Shown: piece by piece, positions 52,301 through 62,770 of the stretch
How the letters are laid out: the number at the start of each line of letters is the position of its first letter
How positions within the stretch are numbered: the stretch's first letter is position 1
NCBI GenBank assembly: GCA_034401795.1
Contig: CM067369.1
Location: forward strand, 85,259,129-85,323,128
Direction: 5' to 3'
DNA from: Chaetoderma sp. LZ-2023a
Taxonomy: Eukaryota > Mollusca > Caudofoveata > Chaetodermatida > Chaetodermatidae
Length of the DNA stretch: 64,000 nucleotides
Notes under the pieces: generated by a model
Seen by the model: the letters and a program-made list of their open reading frames with translations, nothing else
Databases searched by the model: none
What the model was told of the DNA's origin: nothing
Program-made: the position numbers and the translations under genes

Positions 52301-53625
<1,325 letters not shown>

Positions 53626-53813
53626 TTAGCAGGAAGGTGGAAGAGCTGAATGGATTTTGTAAGCCAGCTATACCAAATGATGACATCTACTTTGCCATCT
53701 GGAATGTGAATTTTGAGTGGGCAAAATCTACCATTAAGGCCATGTTAAATCACTATAATGAACAACTTGGTAGTATTAGAACTGAAGTAGTCCTCACACA
53801 GGCAATGCCACAT
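53626..53813 (+). pseudogene. 188-bp exact copy of part of the PLE ORF1
   Basis: 53626-53813 reads identically to 55714-55901 at every base I compared, from TTAGCAGGAAGGTGG to CAGGCAATGCCACAT. It encodes the KVEELNGFCKPAIPNDD region. The flanks do not match ORF1 on either side. It joins direct repeat copy 1 on the left and a C-rich, then G-rich, simple-sequence block on the right. Confidence 0.9.
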
Positions 53814-54770
53814 CCCTCCCGCTACTCTGCCTTCCCACTGCCCGTCTGTCCATCTCGAACTCCCACCCCTGCACCTTCCCCAGCCGATCCCCGCTCTATC
53901 CTTCTCTCCTACCCATCCATCATCCGGCCTCTCATCCATCCTTGGGGGTGGGGCGGGGGGGGGGGGGGGGGTAATGTGAATGGTGTGTGCGTGCGTGCGT
54001 ACATGCGTGCGTGCGTGCGTGTATACTTGTGCCTACGTGTGTACATGTGTGTGCGTGCGTACATGCGTGCGTGTGTAAATGTGGGTACGTGCATGCGTGC
54101 GCGTGTACGTGTGTGTATGTGTGTGTACGTGTGTGTGTGAGAGCGTGCGTGTGGGTGGATGGATGGATGGATGGTCCTCCCCCTCTATCCAGCCATGCCC
54201 ACTCTATTCTTCCTTCCTTCCCATCCCTCATTCCATCTCCACATCGGGATGGATGGATGGATCTTTCCCATCCCTCCTTCCCTCCCTTCCATGGATGGAT
54301 GGATGAATGGATGGATGGTTTGATGTATGGGTGGGTGGATGGTGGGATGGATGGATCCTTCCCATCAATCATCCCCAATCCCCTTCCTTCCATGGGTGTG
54401 TGGGATGGATGGATGGATGGATGGATGGATGGATGGTTGGTTGGTTGGTTGGTTGGTTGGTTGGTTGGTTGGTTGGTTGGTTGGTTGGTTGGTTGGATGG
54501 ATGGATGGATGGATGGTTGGTTGGTTGGATGGATGGATGGATGGATGGATGGATCCTTCCTCCCTCTCTCCGACTAAGCTCTATCCTTCCTTTATGCCCG
54601 TCCCCATCCCACCTCCCCATCCTTCCCGCCTCCCCATCCTTCCATGGATGGATGGGGGGCGTGGGATGGATGGGTGGATGGATGGATGGTTGGATGGATG
54701 GATGGATGGATCTGTCCATCTGCCTTGCCAGCCATCCGGCTCTCTGTGTGTCCGTCCAGCCACTCACTCA
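53814..54770. repeat. Simple-sequence block: G-tract, (GTGC/GTAC)n, (GGAT)n, (GGTT)n
   Basis: C-rich DNA to 53940, a ~17-base G-tract near 53955, GTGCGTGCGTAC runs to 54155, then interleaved GGATGGAT and GGTTGGTT blocks with CCTTCC spacers. (GGTT)n is purest at 54432-54497. Long open frames in several phases (53987-54577, 54307-54816, 54369-54767 minus) arise because 4-bp repeats can be open in many frames. None is a gene. Confidence 0.9.
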
Positions 54771-55550
54771 CATAAAATTAAGGGAGCTGAATACTACTTT
54801 CTTTCTACATGTATGAATAAAGTTTAATTATAAACACTGCAGTGGCCTTTCCGGTGTGGCGAACAAAATTCTATAAAATGACAAAATATGTCCTCCAAAC
54901 TTGATTAATTTTTTCGGCATCAAATGATCAAAAGGAATCAAAAGGCAAAATTGAGTGTCCCAACAAAAGCATATAACACCTTTGAATGATCGATTCATGA
55001 TCTCGTGAAGGAAACACTACTCAGTTATCAATCCAATTCGGAAGAGTAAAATTTCACTAATCTGTGTGGAGTGAAACCAGTCCACTAATCATTGGCTTTA
55101 TTAATGATGTTTGTGATAAACCCGAATCAAAGGAAATTCAAACCTTGCACAAAGTTCAATTGTTCAAATTAAACCATAGAGTAGTTTTTCAAAGGAGATT
55201 GAGTAATTCAGTAAACGTATATAAAGCTGTCTATACTGAAGGACTGACAGATTTGTCATACAGGCTACTGATGAAGCACATCCATGTGAAATGCATTTAG
55301 CCAATTGACGGTGTCCATAATTACTGTGAGTAACTTATAATATTGCGTATTGTATTGTTGTATTGTTAACCCTTGCATATTACATGTTAATCCTATAATT
55401 TGTCTTTCAGGTGTAAGTAATATACTGGTTCAATTTGTAGTTGATGTGAATGAATTTGTGTGCTTGAATTTGAGTTTGCCTGATCGAATCGTTCTTACCT
55501 GCTCAACTGCCTGTCTGATTGCTAGTTAGATTGAACGATTGTCTGTCTGA
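54771..55550 (+). other. Presumed PLE 5' leader with intron-like segment
   Basis: No PLE motif. At 55326-55410 a GTGAGT donor and a TTTGTCTTTCAG acceptor bound 85 nt, directly upstream of ORF1. A 78-codon frame at 55064-55300 ends before the donor and shows no family features. Whether this is element leader or flanking DNA is unknown. Confidence 0.35.
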
Positions 55551-57041
55551 ATGGCTATTGCGAGGAAGAATGGTCGTAGGAAGAATGGAGATGGTAAAGG
55601 GGGTTCATCTGCGCATGCGCGCCTGGTAAAGCTGTATTACCAAATAATTCAGTGCTTCCACCATATTGCTACGCTGCGTAGGCATTTAGATGCCGAAACT
55701 CTCCCTGGTGGGCTTAGCAGGAAGGTGGAAGAGCTGAATGGATTTTGTAAGCCAGCTATACCAAATGATGACATCTACTTTGCCATCTGGAATGTGAATT
55801 TTGAGTGGGCAAAATCTACCATTAAGGCCATGTTAAATCACTATAATGAACAACTTGGTAGTATTAGAACTGAAGTAGTCCTCACACAGGCAATGCCACA
55901 TTTAGACCCAGGTCGTGCTAAATCCAATGCTATACGCTGGGCAAAAAACAATTATAATAGAAAGCTCGACATTAATGCGATTAGTTCTTTTTACGATTTT
56001 GTGCGACCGATAGATCCATCTCAGCAACCAATTCAAAATCTCGCACAAGCCACGCCTCTGGTCATGATACCAACTGTGGCCCCACAATCACAAATGAAAA
56101 AACGCCTCAGATCACCTGAAACTTCGCCGCCAGTCACAAAACGAGTAGACAATAAAATATCTCCATTGCTACCATTAGATTCTGACCCTAGAGATATGCT
56201 ATTTGAAGCATCATTAATCCCACTACCTGACTCTCCACTAGGCAATCTAAATTACCCAAACGATTATCCGCCCTTGCCACAGAGGGAAAGGGTTAATGGT
56301 AGCAAATCTGGTCCACGGACTGGCGCTTCACAGAAATCCCCCCAGAGCAGTCAACCATCGGGTCTCAAGACCCCATCCCCAACAGGGAAACTGCCACAGC
56401 CCAGCTTCTCTCCAACTCCAGGTCCAAGTAATGCACCGGAGGTGCGTCCTATTAAATTTGCAAATAGACCCCAACAACCCACCATGTTGGAGAGAAACAT
56501 TTTTTGGAAATTTCGTCATGAAATCGAAAAAAACAAAATTGACTGGCGACTACCTGTTCTCACGAACAAAGTACTCATCTTTGGAGCTTCGAACCTGAGT
56601 CGCATTAATGTTGAGCCCCACCCTGAAACGCAAGTTGCCTGCTACCCAGGAGCTAAATTGTGTCATGCTAGAGGACTAATTCAAAAGTACACTGGATCAT
56701 TTAAAACAGAGAAAATAGTGATTAACATTGGCATTAATGATATGAATGAACCCATCTCTAGTTCAAAACATAGATTAATGCTGCTTCTCAGTGCGATTAA
56801 GTCCAAATTCCCAAAGACTGCGATTTACTTCTCAAAACTTAACTATTCAAGTCGGTTGACAGCTCAGCAGAAGTTGGCGATTCAGTCCATCAATTCGACG
56901 GCTGAATCATCAAAATATGTGACTGTCATTCCTGCACTTAGACTCTCCGAATTTAATGTTGTTAAGGATAACATTCATTGGACTGAGAAGACAGCTAACT
57001 CGATGTATTCTGCCTGGCTTAAATTCCTAAATTTAAACTAG
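55551..57041 (+). CDS. PLE ORF1: basic N-terminus, unknown middle, SGNH-hydrolase-like C-terminus
   Basis: 496 codons, intact, ATG at 55551. Residues 1-25 are basic and glycine-rich (ARKNGRRKNGDGKGG). Residues ~50-150 hold a segment I cannot assign (KVEELNGFCKPAIPNDDIYF, FEWAKSTIKAMLNHY). Residues ~160-320 are Pro/Ser-rich and probably disordered. From ~340 there is an SGNH/GDSL-like fold: VLIFGASN with Ser347 as candidate nucleophile (block I), NIGINDMN with G394-x-N-D397 (block III), and DNIHWT with D473-x-x-H476 (block V). SGNH esterase domains are known in ORF1 of some CR1-group LINEs, where they may act in RNP or membrane contacts. Here the role is inference. The stop TAG at 57039 sits directly on a TTTAAAC frameshift site into ORF2, so the protein may be made both alone and as a fusion. 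Confidence 0.85.
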   Translation: MAIARKNGRRKNGDGKGGSSAHARLVKLYYQIIQCFHHIATLRRHLDAETLPGGLSRKVEELNGFCKPAIPNDDIYFAIWNVNFEWAKSTIKAMLNHYNEQLGSIRTEVVLTQAMPHLDPGRAKSNAIRWAKNNYNRKLDINAISSFYDFVRPIDPSQQPIQNLAQATPLVMIPTVAPQSQMKKRLRSPETSPPVTKRVDNKISPLLPLDSDPRDMLFEASLIPLPDSPLGNLNYPNDYPPLPQRERVNGSKSGPRTGASQKSPQSSQPSGLKTPSPTGKLPQPSFSPTPGPSNAPEVRPIKFANRPQQPTMLERNIFWKFRHEIEKNKIDWRLPVLTNKVLIFGASNLSRINVEPHPETQVACYPGAKLCHARGLIQKYTGSFKTEKIVINIGINDMNEPISSSKHRLMLLLSAIKSKFPKTAIYFSKLNYSSRLTAQQKLAIQSINSTAESSKYVTVIPALRLSEFNVVKDNIHWTEKTANSMYSAWLKFLNLN

Positions 57042-59341
57042 ACAAGGGCCAGGGTAACATCCGCCCGGAAACAGGACTGGGCAGTAATATTGTCAATCTA
57101 ACTGGCTCCCCATTAGGTGAAGCAGAGCAGTCACTGCTCAATTTTGGTCTTACATTTGTCCCAACACCAAAACCTAAAACAGGTTTGGATGCTCTTTTAG
57201 ATAATGGCTGTATGGAAACATCTGAATTTAGTCACCGTATTAAGTTAGCAGACTTCTTTCGTATCTCTAATAGTAACATTCCACCATTCATTGAAAAAAA
57301 TGGCTGGGCACCAAACGTAAAAATCCTGGACCCAGCGATCGGTGAAAGCATAGAACTCTTTTCAGAACGTGTTAAAAATTCTACATTCCCTAATGATCAA
57401 CCAAATTTACCCTATGAGGAACGCCAGGCATTAATTGAATTGTCTAAAAACAGCGAAATTGTCATCAAACCTGCAGATAAAGGGTCGGCGACTGTAATAA
57501 TGCTTAAAGATAACTATAAACGTGAAGCACAACGACAACTTAGTAACCCAAAGCATTACCAGAAACTAAGCAAACTACTTTGGCAAAATAATTGCAGCAA
57601 ATTTAATGAGATTCTTCAAAAATTGCTCGATAGCAAGAAGATCACCGAAAAGCAACATAAGTATCTCTTTCCTAAACTTGAGTCAAAACCACGGACTTTC
57701 TATCTTTTGCCAAAAATTCATAAACCCATAGATTCGTGGTTGGACCCAATGTCACCTCCCGGGCGACCTATAATCTCTGATTGTGGCTCAGAATCCTACA
57801 GAATCAGTGAATGCATCGATTACCATCTACAGCCAATAGCAAATGGACACCCCAGCTTCTTGAAAAACACAGAAGACTTCTTATCACAGGTCTCTGAGAC
57901 CTGGATACCTCCAAATTCATTCTTGGTCACGCTTGACATCGATGCTATGTATACAAACATTGACATCGAGAAGGGTATACATTCTATCCGTAGAGCATTC
58001 GTGAACTACCCAGACACCAACAGGCCAGACAGAGAAGTAATAGCTCTATTAGAGCTGAGTCTGAAAGGCAATGATTTTGAATTCGATGGCGAAATTTACC
58101 AACAAATTTGCGGCTGCGCGATGGGCAAGCGCTTTAGCCCATGTTTTGCCAATATTTACGTAGCAGAGTGGGAGGAGGAAGCGTTAGAAAAGTGTCCAAA
58201 ACATCCCCTCATTTATCGCAGGTACCTTGATGACATTTTCATGATTTGGCAACACACAAAGGCAGAGTTTGATGAATTTTTCGAAATTATGAACAATCAC
58301 GATCCTAATATCAAATTAAAAGCAACCATTGACGAGATGTCTGTAGATTTCCTGGATGTAACTGTATATAAAGGTCTAAAGTATGAAACAACTGGCTACT
58401 TAGACTACAAAGTGTATTTCAAACCAACCGATTCGCATCAGCTATTGCACTAAAAATCTTTCCATCCACCACATACTTTTAAAGGAATAGTTGAATCACA
58501 AATAATCCGTTTTCACAGGAATTCGAGTGATAGGAAAAACTTTGAAGAAGCGTGCTCTACCCTATTCAAAGCCCTCAAACCACGAGGTTACTCCTCACGA
58601 TTCTTGCGCAAAATCAAATCTGAAACATTAGACGGCTTGGAAACCATTCCAGATAATGCCTCAAAACGACGGCCAACCAAAATTTCTCACAATCGTCCTA
58701 TTATAGGTGTAGGCGAATCTCGCAAATGCGGAAAGAAAAGGTGCAAGTTAGATGAATTTCTCTTAAACCAGAATACTTTCACGAGCTTTCAGAACAAAAG
58801 CAAGTTCCAACTTCAGTCTAATCTAGATTGTGACTCTGAAAATGTTATTTATCTAATTTCATGCAAATTGTGCCAAAAACAGTATGTCGGCGAAACCAAA
58901 TGTCCATTAAGATGGCGGGCAACTCGACACCTCTCAGATATTAGGCCAGAGGAAGACACACATGTATCCGAACATTTTAATCTTCCTGACCATTTAGTCC
59001 TTCGTGACTTTGAAATTATGCCGATTGAACAGCCACCCCTTTCAGATACGGCAGAAGAAACTGATAAACAAAGAAAACTTCGAGAATCGTTTTGGATTAA
59101 AGAACTCGAAACACAGTGGCCAAGGGGAATAAACTCGGACCCAGGCTTATCTGATCAACGTGACAAAATTCCATTCATTCTGACCTATAATCGGAAAAAC
59201 GATGAAATTTCCAAAATTTTGAAAGATGAGTATCAAAACCTACAGGAGAAACTGAAACAACCCTTTAACAAGCGTCCAGTAATTGCGTTCAAGAAAAATC
59301 CGAATCTACGTGACATCTTGGTAAAAGCAAAACTCAAATAG
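57023..59341 (+). CDS. PLE ORF2: reverse transcriptase with GIY-YIG endonuclease, one internal stop
   Basis: The frame is open from 57023 with no ATG until about 57212. The conserved PLE N-terminus (VNLTGSPLGEAEQ, GLTFVPTPKPK) lies before that, so it is best reached by -1 frameshifting from ORF1. RT motifs in order: IVIKPADKGSATVIM, FYLLPKIHKP, PPGRPIISDC, LVTLDIDAMYTNI (motif A), CAMGKRFSPCFANIYV (motif B), YRRYLDDIF (motif C, catalytic DD), VDFLDVTVYKG. A TAA at 58451-58453 interrupts the same frame where lysine is likely (LLH*KSFHPPH). After it come the CGKKRC cysteine pair and a GIY-YIG-type nuclease (NVIYLISCKLCQKQYVGETK, WRATRHLSDI, SEHFNLPDH). Apart from that stop the ~770-codon frame is intact. 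Such elements copy themselves by RT primed at a nick made by the GIY-YIG domain. Confidence 0.9.
57032..57108 (+). promoter_or_regulatory. Candidate programmed -1 ribosomal frameshift site at ORF1 stop
   Basis: T-TTA-AAC (57032-57038) is in the phase X-XXY-YYZ relative to ORF1 and is followed at once by its TAG. Slipping back one base reads TTT-AAA-CTA-GAC straight into the open ORF2 frame. Seven bases further on, GGGCCAG (57046-57052) can pair with CTGGCTC (57102-57108) with one G-U pair. Shorter alternatives (GGG with CCC at 57064-57066, CCAG with CTGG at 57077-57080) could form a pseudoknot. The structure is by eye only. Confidence 0.7.
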
Positions 59342-59377
59342 CTATCCATAATATCCATCTCAATCATTCAACATTAA

Positions 59378-59597
59378 CCCTTGCATGATGGTCAGCCAAA
59401 AACGGTCAATTTAGTGATCTTGGGCAATGTCCATTTGCCGGCGGGGATTGGAGTATTTTTGAAAATTTACCACTGTAAATACTACTAGTGGTTCCAGTGG
59501 TATATTCTCGGGAATGACCTTGTCTGTGCCTGCAAATGTACATTAAATAAGTAAGCGCATATTTGGATTTTACTGAACAAATTTAACCAGTAAAGGG
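59378..59597. mobile_element. B-family TTAA element in the PLE 3' flank
   Basis: CCCTTGCATGATGGTCAGCC after TTAA (59374-59377), CCAGTAAAGGG before TTAA (59598-59601). Arms CCATTTGCCGGCGGGGATTGG and CCTGCAAATGTACATT with a mutated apex (ACTACTAGTGGTTCCAGTGG). Confidence 0.7.
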
Positions 59598-59710
59598 TTA
59601 ACATTAATGCCATATGGCTTTCCTCAAACAAAATGACAAATCTCAGGCAGTAAGATAAACCAAAATATCTTTTTGAATTTTTTCAATTATTGAAGATTCT
59701 GAGCCAGTGC

Positions 59711-59729
59711 GTTGACAATATTGACTACT

Positions 59730-59826
<97 letters not shown>

Positions 59827-59862
59827 GCCGCCGCCGCCGCTACTACTACTACTACTAATACA

Positions 59863-59941
<79 letters not shown>

Positions 59942-59951
59942 GTACTACTAC
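59711..59951. repeat. (CTA)n microsatellite with GCCGCC interruption
   Basis: More than 70 CTA units, broken once by GCCGCCGCCGCC near 59827. It gives a spurious poly-Leu frame. Confidence 0.95.
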
Positions 59952-60740
59952 TAAGGGTTAAGACACCAGCCTATACACCAGTTGGTTGCTGAATGCTGAA
60001 ACAGTACATTCTGTTTGATTATTGTCATAAAACGGCTTCTGCTGAACCACACCGATACAGCAGTCAGTCAATCGTTACTGACCTGTATGCGAAAAATGAA
60101 GGCCCTATATCACACTAACAATATACAAAAGTAATTTTAATCGATATTGGCTGTATAGCTGAACTATAATTCTCATATACGTGACAGGATTAATTAGTCA
60201 GACATTTTATTGTCTTCATCCACAATGTTGGGGGGGGGGGCAAGTGGCTAGAATCCCAGTCGCCAAGACGAGAACCTTACATGAGCCAGCTCTTACAGGT
60301 GGCTTAGAGCCTAGATAGCCTCTTTGATTTGATCAAGTTGGATTAATGCTGTCAATTGTATTGAATTATGTGAGAAGGTTACAGTAGGAATCTTCTTTAT
60401 CCGCCCAGTCTACCCATTATTGAATGTGGTTTTGAAAAACAAACAATCGTGTGTCAACAATGGCAGTAAAAATAATATAAATGAAATCGGCCCAGTTCTT
60501 CTTGAGAAGAAGAGAAGACAATTCAATTCTCCAATTGCTTTAGCATTGGCAAATTTTGCGGGAAAAAGATCCAAGATGGCCGTCAACCCGTTCATCCGAC
60601 AGTATTGAAAATGGCAAATTTGGAATCAGAAGACCCAAAAACCTGTGTAAAACCAATTTCGGCTTCAAATTTCCACAAATAAATTAATTAAAAATGGCCG
60701 CCAATCATGCTGAATTTTGATTGGCCGATGGCGGCCATGT
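59952..60740. repeat. Direct repeat copy 2
   Basis: Follows 52567-53625 from AAGGGTTAAGACACC to GGCGGCCATGT. The ~270-bp segment is replaced by a G-tract at 60230-60239. Unlike copy 1 it continues uninterrupted into the next G-repeat unit. Confidence 0.8.
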
Positions 60741-62770
60741 TTTTTACATATCAATTTCTCCTGAACAACCTGTAATGCCCCTCAGTACGTAATCATACCA
60801 GCCAAATTTCGGCCCGATCCGTTTAGCGGTTCTGGAGAGGAACTCGTTTTCACGAAAACTAGGTCATTCAAGATGGCCCCTGAAGTTTCTGGCCAATCAA
60901 ATACTTTTGAATAAACTTGGTTCAGCCGATGCCCTAGATGACATTTCATGACTTTTGAATCAATCCGCCAAGTGCCTTCGGAGGAGAAGGTTTTTAAATA
61001 CGTTTCCTGAAATACTACAAAATCCAAAATGGCCGCCGCCCTGATCGGCTGATTAGCATTCTTTGAACATAATCAGATCTCTATTACATAATGATGATTT
61101 CTGCAAAATATAATTGAAATCCACCGAGAGGTTTCCGAGGAGAAGGAATTTAAAATTTCCAATTGCTTTACTAGGGGTGAATTTGGCATGAAAACGATCC
61201 AAGATGGCCACCAAACCGTTCGTCGGACAGTATTAAAAATGGCAAATTTGGAATCAGAAGACCCAAAAACCTATCTGAAACCAATTTCGGCTTAAAATTT
61301 CGACAAATAAAGAAATTTAAAATGGCCGCAAATCATGATGAATTTTGATTGGTCGATGGCGGCCATGTTTTTTGACATATCGATTTCTCTTGAACAAACT
61401 GTAATGACCCTCAGTCTCTAATCATATCAGCCAAATTTTGGCTCGATCCGTTTAGCGGTTCTGGAGAAGACATCATTTTAACGAAAACTAGGTCATTCAA
61501 GATGGCCACCCAAGTTTTCAGCCAATCAAATTCCCTTGAACAAACATGTTTCAGACGCTACCCTAGATGATATTTCATGAGTTTTGAATCAATCCGCCAA
61601 GTGATTTCGGAGAAGATTTTTTAAAAACATTTCCCGAAATACTGCAAAATCCAAAATGGCCACCAGCCTAATAGGCCGACCAGTGTTGTTTGAACAGAAT
61701 CAAATTTCTATTACCTAACGATACTTCCTGCAAAATATAATTGAAATCCACCCAGTGGTGTCCGAGGAAAAGGCATTTTAACTTTCCAATTGCTTTACTA
61801 TGGGGAATTTGGCGGGAAACTAATCCAACATCGCAGTCACCGATCGAACAAATTCGAAAATACCAGATTTGGATTACTTGACCCCAAAAACCTATATAGG
61901 CCCAATTTGCGCATCAAAATCCATTAAATAAAAAATGTCCGCCAGAAAGCTTGATGCTGATTGGTCCATATGGAAACCCATGGTTTTTTTAAGCGATTAA
62001 CTTCTCTTGAACAAACTTGATAGGGACCCACGCTTCGCTGCTTCTGACCCAATTTCACCTCATTCCGTTCAGTGGTTCTGGAGAAGAAGATTGCAAAATG
62101 CAAGATGGCCGCCAACCTATCTAGAAAATCATATCTATTCACATGGAGAAAGTTTACCCTAATAAGGTCCTCTTGCCATGCCAAGCTTGAATTTCACCAG
62201 CATTTTTGTCTTCACGCTATCCGTGAACAAAAATAACGGCGGAATATTAATTTTCCCATTGGTTTACTGTGGGAGATTTTGTCGGGAAATGAATCCAAGA
62301 TGGCGGCCAAACCATTAATCCGATAGATTCGAAAATGCCAGATTTGAATTTCTCGACCCCCCCCCCCCCCCCCCCGAAAACCTATATATGACCAATTTGG
62401 GCTTAAAATTCCATCAAATAAAAAATTAAACATTTCCGCCAGACGGCTTGATTCTGATTGGTCCATACGCAAATCCGTGTTTTTCGAGCTATCGACTTCT
62501 CTTGAACAAACTTTTATGAGACCCACTCTCAGATGAGTTTCACCAAATTTCAGCTCATTCCTTTCAGTGGTTCTGGAGACGGTTTTTTAAAACGCGGGAA
62601 AATTTTCCGGAAATCCAAGATGGCCACCAACCTATCTAGAAAATCATATCCATTAACACGTAAAAATGTTGCTCTAATAACGTCCTCTTGCCATGCAAAG
62701 CTTGGATTTCATCGGCATTTTTGTCTTCGCACTATTCGCAAACAAATAAAAGCATGGAATAATTACAAAA
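60741..62770. repeat. G repeat array with ~0.5-0.63-kb higher-order units
   Basis: The phrase 'TCGAYTTCTCTTGAACAAAC' starts units at about 60750, 61378, 61990 and 62488. Within each are 'GCGGTTCTGGAGA', 'TTCAAGATGGC', 'GAGTTTTGAATCAATCC', 'AAATCCAAAATGGCC', 'TTCCAATTGCTTTACTA' and 'AATGGCAAATTTGGAATCAG'. A C-tract lies at 62359-62377. No gene is seen. Confidence 0.8.

Follow-up and report, generated by a model that had tools for sequence, protein, structure and literature searches.

A Penelope-like element (PLE) in the genome of the mollusc Chaetoderma sp. LZ-2023a very likely joins its two open reading frames (ORFs), an SGNH-like ORF1 and an ORF2 for reverse transcriptase (RT) and GIY-YIG endonuclease (EN), by programmed −1 frameshifting at U_UUA_AAC. 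The element lies on the forward strand of a 64,000-nucleotide stretch (GenBank assembly GCA_034401795.1, contig CM067369.1, positions 85,259,129 to 85,323,128), hereafter the window; coordinates given without a contig name are window positions, and the features described are on the + strand. Most ribosomes would terminate at the stop codon that adjoins the heptamer, releasing the ORF1 protein (ORF1p); a minority would shift back by one base at the heptamer, continue with CUA and the codons that follow, and make an ORF1-RT-EN fusion. Most simply, the fusion would carry RT into an ORF1p particle in the manner of Gag-Pol. What we infer from the arrangement of the sequence is the slippage, the ratio at which it occurs, an RNA structure that would stimulate it and the purpose of the fusion. 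A preliminary description of this DNA had proposed such an ORF1-RT fusion, and two findings support it: conservation of the site across five PLE families and the near-absence of synonymous codons at the heptamer.

The ORF1/ORF2 junction

ORF1 (55551..57041; 496 codons in the window, 495 in most of 39 copies) begins with an ATG immediately preceded by an in-frame TGA, and ends in AAT TTA AAC TAG, with TTA at 57033-57035 and AAC at 57036-57038. The preliminary description had placed an in-phase X_XXY_YYZ heptamer at the ORF1 stop, and T_TTA_AAC indeed occupies 57032..57038, in phase with ORF1 and with the stop TAG directly 3' of it (57039..57041). A 7-nt spacer (57039..57045) leads from the heptamer to a conserved GGG. 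ORF2, in the −1 frame, spans 57032..59341; counted from the heptamer, it is 769 codons long in most of the 39 copies. As also claimed, this frame stays open from position 57023 on through the RT, and no ATG precedes the conserved block GLTFVPTP; the first Met lies after the block, at codon 61 counted from the heptamer. When the codons of ORF1 were shuffled 20,000 times, TTTAAAC fell directly before the stop in 0.01% of cases, an efficient-type heptamer fell there in 0.48%, and 3.0% had any such heptamer among the six final in-phase positions. U_UUA_AAC is listed as one of the −1 heptamers on which mammalian ribosomes slip most readily, in agreement with the earlier ranking of UUUAAAC among the strongest eukaryotic slippery sequences, and the usual spacer between heptamer and structure is 5-9 nt (PMC5009743).

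Intact copies of an abundant family have the −1 arrangement

At least 39 near-identical copies, here family A, scored genome-wide, and all 39 were fetched; they are related and so not independent. The sequence TTTAAACTAG is present exactly once in each of the 39, and in 29 both ORFs run from the ORF1 ATG to the end of ORF2 without a stop or frame change. The other ten (L001, which is the window copy, L013, L016, L018, L019, L031, L034, L036, L038 and L039) have ORF1 stops (4), ORF2 stops (3), a frame-changing insertion (1) or a 5'-truncation (2), one of the two truncated copies also having an ORF2 frame change. Decay of a single copy is thus ruled out as the origin of the −1 arrangement. The window copy itself has a premature in-frame TAA in ORF2 (58451-58453), after which the same frame continues to 59341. 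Its ORF1 carries an extra AAA, inserted in frame. Neither change occurs in the 38 other fetched copies. A protein search of the genome with the RT scored 89 copies, each with 97-100% identity to it, and by our count the RT frame has 772 codons in 76 of them, two with one internal TGA. RT copies were also seen in much longer frames, at C2693:7876-9303 (3101 codons), C1:103917808-103919235 (2202) and C2:65245712-65247139 (2325), possibly where a microsatellite upstream is open.

The −1 frame is under purifying selection. Among the 39 copies, changes scored in the ORF2 frame comprise 56 nonsynonymous (N) and 47 synonymous (S) ones, an N/S ratio of 0.48 (p 1.8e-4) that reflects depletion of nonsynonymous changes; for changes that occur in more than one copy the ratio is 0.26. 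Scored in the other two frames, the same changes give 2.41 and 1.08. The stretch of ORF2 before its first Met has 5 N and 6 S changes (p 0.10) and is too short to decide alone.

Nucleotide conservation at the heptamer

The heptamer was examined genome-wide with a degenerate pattern for FKL[DN]xGQG that permits TTC, AAG and either Leu codon family; family B, which is without [DN], lies outside the pattern. It matched 2392 times, and the reversed pattern not once. Synonymous changes in the heptamer were present in 13 of the 2392 matches (TTC in 6, TTTAAG in 7), TTTAAA being kept in 2379. Among the first 100 matches listed, all on contig C1, 97 have TTTAAAC and 3 TTTAAAT, and the 0-frame codon that follows is TAA in 53, TAG in 44, TGA in 2 and TGG in 1. 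At the first position of the GGG that follows the spacer, where the downstream structure would begin, 2350 of the 2392 matches have G (42 do not), as do all of the first 100 listed, in which the codon that ends with this G takes seven different forms. Copies within a family are not independent, and these counts describe uniformity rather than yield a p-value; the argument therefore rests on the comparison between families. Together the sequences show the heptamer and its phase to be conserved beyond what protein coding requires.

Conservation of the junction between families

More distant loci were sought with a pattern for the GLTFVPTP block that included a codon excluding the young family, which gave 94 matches against 2 for the reversed pattern. 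Twenty of the 94 were fetched, picked to span the variants and drawn without reference to the heptamer. Five (L050-L053 and L056) showed no further likeness to PLEs and the other 15 are PLE loci, of which 14 cover the junction, L043 being cut off there. In 13 of these 14, an in-phase TTTAAA[C/T] lies 114 or 117 nt before the block. Nine further loci were chosen by the FKL motif and are not independent evidence for the heptamer; one of the loci fetched, L070, had no recognisable PLE part in its fetched sequence.

The junction was compared in 23 loci including the window, with family E represented by one locus. A stop codon directly follows the heptamer in 22 of the 23, the exception being TGG in L064. 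Families B, C, D and E all have the in-phase TTTAAA[C/T], the ORF1 stop directly after it and the 7-nt spacer. Each of the 17 loci from these four families has a TAA or TAG that abuts TTT on its 5' side and closes the ORF2 frame, and the heptamer is therefore the only overlap of the two frames. With this two-stop bracket (TAA-TTT-AAA-C / TTA-AAC-TAA), which would be a very clean natural example, no in-frame upstream start can enter the ORF2 frame. The ORF2 frame opens three codons upstream of the heptamer in five family A loci, and 28 codons upstream in L067, which was assigned to no family.

Representatives of A to E are 36-60% identical at the ORF1 C-terminus (lowest B-C, 39/108; highest D-E, 62/103) and 54-82% identical at the ORF2 N-terminus (lowest B-C, 30/56; highest A-D, 47/57). 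The ORF1 part was translated without a stop in L042, L046, L048, L049, L054 and L060. The five representatives agree in residue at 29 codons, of which 22 vary in nucleotides and seven are invariant; the seven include the first three, TTT AAA CTA, which by our own arithmetic has a chance of about 1%. Thus TTTAAA[C/T], its phase, the 7-nt spacer and the different frames of the two ORFs, whose conservation over copies had been proposed as a check, are kept in five families. Among the families that share ORF1 we found no intact copy with both ORFs in one frame, no loss of the heptamer and no conserved ATG for ORF2.

Candidate RNA structures downstream of the heptamer

The preliminary description had proposed a stem starting 7 nt downstream of the heptamer, with arms GGGCCAG (57046..57052) and CTGGCTC (57102..57108). 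The two arms can pair, and do so in the minimum-energy fold of the window copy, but no pair is changed on both sides across families. In ten sequences 84.3% of cells pair, versus 16-63% when the arms are slid, and 202 of 500 shuffles reach the score of the stem. It may be kept as a possible structure. The downstream fold of the window copy is weak evidence, with a z of −1.66 over 109 nt (13 of 200 shuffles as good) and of 0.12 over 87 nt (109 of 200).

RNAalifold predicted a 21-nt hairpin, H1 (57046..57066; GGGY-CAR-GGY-loop-RCY-RCCC), that shares the GGG at its base, and a second, short stem. In H1, 91.4% of cells pair, versus 37-61% when slid, and the hairpin folds in all ten sequences, in some with only part of its pairs. 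Two pairs are changed on both sides between families (C-G/U-A and U-A/C-G). Out of 500 shuffles, 2 reach its covariation score, 11 its percentage of paired cells and 146 its number of both-side changes. Alone it is weak (−2.9 to −7.5 kcal/mol) and, in five sequences, no better by energy than shuffles. A competing hairpin further 3' (alignment columns 30-59) was rejected; it pairs well in A, B and D, and poorly in C and E.

A long-range stem 2, between TGGGCAGT (57078..57085) and ACTGCTCA (57133..57140), would form a pseudoknot with GGGCCAG/CTGGCTC. Families A, D and E can form all eight of its pairs, which B and C cannot, and 431 of 500 shuffles reach its number of both-side changes; it is only a lead. 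Pseudoknot prediction had been suggested for this region, and a scan for the H-type gave results better than shuffled sequence in A, B and E and not in C or D (share of 60 mononucleotide shuffles as good: A 2%, B 3%, E 5%, C 20%, D 52%). We therefore treat the first stem, H1 and stem 2 as candidates for the stimulatory structure.

Alternative explanations

Several observations weigh against programmed frameshifting at this site, or against its generality. All comparisons were made within one genome (2.44 Gb, 2753 contigs), and many loci outside family A are decayed copies. ORF1 shows no depletion of nonsynonymous changes over all changes in the 39 copies (N/S 1.02; 0.39 for changes shared between copies). 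Part of the constancy of the heptamer must stem from coding in two frames, for LN-stop in one and FKL in the other. The block sample also includes L055, a more distantly related PLE that lacks the heptamer. No single structure is complete in all of A to E, and the downstream folds are not reliably better than shuffles (z for A, B, C, D and E: 0.12, −2.63, 0.12, −1.08 and 0.13). In family D, moreover, an ATG lies in frame 13 codons past the heptamer (GAAATGGGA), as expected if ORF2 had a start of its own.

Such an independent start could come about by reinitiation after the ORF1 stop, through an internal entry site or at a non-AUG codon. Reinitiation is used by some retrotransposons, and in L069, a PLE of another kind from this genome, the RT frame has an ATG of its own shortly past an upstream stop, from which it follows that not all PLEs of this genome use the frameshift arrangement. 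ATG also occurs as the spacer codon in 3 of the first 100 listed matches and in L058, and is not common to the families. However, the A, B, C and E representatives are without an in-frame ATG between the heptamer and GLTFVPTP, the family A Met at codon 61 is absent from B, C and E, and the CTG at codon 16 is not conserved; the comparison of A to E thus rules out a conserved AUG or CTG start. Nor does any such start account for the heptamer, and we regard this explanation as very unlikely. Splicing seems to us equally improbable. An intron ending near CTAG (57038-57041), or at the CAG/AAG in GGGYCARGG, would join an upstream exon to the ORF2 frame; CTAG and CAG|G are present at the junction in family A, and PLEs can carry introns and disperse intron-containing genes (PMC3846280). 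Against this, TAA replaces TAG after the heptamer in the family B and C loci that were fetched, and in L060 of family D, which rules out the CTAG acceptor, and by eye the sequence 5' of CAR|G is not pyrimidine-rich. Splicing would also leave unexplained the near-absence of TTC and AAG at the heptamer and the stops on both of its sides.

The heptamer might instead be kept only for the residues that it encodes in both proteins, with ORF2 expressed in some other way. The amino acids are conserved in both frames, and the codons concerned are common in ORF2, where AAA is the usual Lys codon (55/72) and TTT serves 22 of 42 Phe. Yet four families have no ORF2-frame codons before TTT, where FKL would be untranslatable without an event at this point, and the G that ends the spacer, conserved although its codon varies, points to a constraint on nucleotides; we hold this reading to be slightly less probable still than splicing or a separate start. 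Slippage during transcription or reverse transcription at A/T runs, which would shift the frame in the RNA rather than on the ribosome, is a known alternative to ribosomal slippage (PMC5009743). The runs here comprise only three T and three A, no length variant occurs in any of the 39 genomic copies, and we give this possibility hardly any credence. Programmed −1 frameshifting is by far the best explanation for a conservation across five families that overlapping coding, splicing and a second start do not explain.

Coding content of the two ORFs

In ORF2, Pfam RVT_1 matches at 57908..58297 (E 2.4e-06, 27.8 bits, cut-off 29.6) and Pfam GIY-YIG at 58844..58999 (E 0.00065, 20.4 bits, cut-off 22.6); the latter part, C-terminal to the RT, contains by eye the motif IYLI...YVGET. 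With an RVT_1 score just under the Pfam cut-off, we take the element to be a PLE from its N-terminal block, the RT-EN order and the GIY-YIG part.

The SGNH-like part of ORF1 (56514..57038) was delimited by alignment across families A to E. Most rows contain, by eye, a Ser block (G-A/S-S-N), a Gly block (YPGA), an Asn block (GIND) and an Asp-His block (DNIH), which we take to be the catalytic blocks of SGNH enzymes. Pfam Lipase_GDSL_2 matches the C-terminus of the window row at E 0.0085, below cut-off, and at E up to 1 six of eight ORF1 rows (best 2.1e-4). Further weak profile matches are to SGNH hydrolases, including the crystallised retrotransposon 4c1b 'ORF1-encoded protein' (E 0.12). These weak matches suggest a C-terminal domain like that of SGNH/GDSL hydrolases. 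An SGNH-type domain in a PLE ORF1 is already known, because SGNH esterase domains are reported also from Penelope-like elements (PMC3905857). Two more in-phase heptamers, both A_AAA_AAC, lie inside ORF1 at 55943 and 56528.

Relation to known systems

Frameshifting that sets the Gag:Pol ratio is textbook knowledge for retroviruses and long terminal repeat (LTR) elements; PLEs are a retroelement class allied to telomerase, not to retroviruses. Provisionally, the site would represent a known mechanism in an element class for which we found no record of it. The preliminary description knew of no frameshifting in GIY-YIG PLEs, and our literature search, which covered few subscription papers and partial listings, likewise found no report of it in PLEs; Penelope is not mentioned in the covered text portion of a recoding review (PMC5009743), and the word frameshift is absent from the main text of PMC3905857, as far as that text was available.

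The PLE resembles retroviral and LTR Gag-Pol in its 0-frame ORF, its RT ORF in the −1 frame, the X_XXY_YYZ heptamer, the 7-nt spacer and a candidate 3' structure. It differs in its Penelope-class RT with GIY-YIG, in an SGNH-like ORF1 in place of Gag, and in an overlap confined to the heptamer in four families. Among 51 animal LTR elements surveyed, 28 have pol in the −1 frame; coronavirus IBV has the identical U_UUA_AAC, whereas the pseudoknot of the PLE is only a candidate; and HeT-A, a telomeric non-LTR retrotransposon, is another LTR-less retroelement with frameshifting, but it shifts within gag itself and has no RT, unlike the PLE, where ORF1 would be joined to RT (PMC5009743). PLEs with EN have been described as single-ORF elements (PMC6431247, PMC3846280, PMC11167929). 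Penelope and Poseidon share with the present element RT and GIY-YIG EN in one ORF and tandem arrays (PMC11167929, PMC3846280), but not the upstream ORF1 in another frame nor an RT ORF without an AUG start. EN-deficient Athena PLEs and Terminons likewise have a PLE-type RT and extra ORFs, including the GDSL esterase type (PMC6431247, PMC5408684), whereas the present element has an EN and bears its GDSL-type domain in ORF1, directly upstream and joined, as we propose, by frameshifting. An ORF1p with an SGNH-type domain is also found in CR1, RTEX and some Penelope elements (PMC3905857).

We consider it fairly probable that a clade of PLEs has converged on retrovirus-style expression, with an SGNH-like ORF1 in the role of Gag, an obligate ORF1-RT-EN fusion made at U_UUA_AAC and a stop-bracketed heptamer as the only overlap of the frames; if so, it would be the first case of programmed frameshifting among PLEs. 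If the site works, the replication particle of the PLE probably needs an excess of ORF1p, with RT supplied as a fusion. It would then bear on the question of what ORF1 does in PLEs, and would offer a short, testable signal.

Extent, flanks and other loci

A blastn comparison of the window with the 38 other copies gives the element an approximate extent of 53806..59733. Where a next tandem unit is present, the shared sequence stops at about 59733 and resumes at about 53806, the 5' part of the following unit being found after the 3' end of the PLE. Head-to-tail copies about 6.2 kb apart occur on C7, C9, C10, C17 and C1093, with about 250 bp between the 3' end of one unit and the 5' end of the next. 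By our count, the match extends beyond 59733 into a (TAC)n tract (59732-59960) in 19 of the 38 other copies; the PLE may insert into this microsatellite, or carry it as part of its 3' end.

The hammerhead motif occurs in the repeats of many PLEs. Here no Rfam family matched the window at the gathering score, hammerhead ribozymes included, and none of the latter matched 53600-60000 at E up to 5; at that threshold Rfam gave 34 matches, 30 of them inside a repetitive stretch at 53986-54770. A search against viral contigs gave no match.

In L055 (C14:21742778-21743950, minus strand), a Gln/Pro-rich ORF1 lies in the frame of the RT N-terminus, with one TGA between them and no ATG from the TGA to the block, which may reflect stop-codon readthrough or mere mutation; another stop lies downstream. 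In L069 (C2:13273107-13273527), a PLE of another type with the motif YIDDIF, the ATG lies a few bases past the stop of the upstream frame (TAACTGTCATGA), in a reinitiation-like arrangement. Twelve evenly spaced block matches about 1.8 kb apart (G000:C4:84711732-84731808) are perhaps a tandem array of a shortened family B unit. In the window, the flanks 52356-53627 and 59732-60741 hold copies of each other, in stretches 93.8 and 96.8% identical, and a 188-bp piece at 53626-53813 is identical to 55714-55901 of ORF1.

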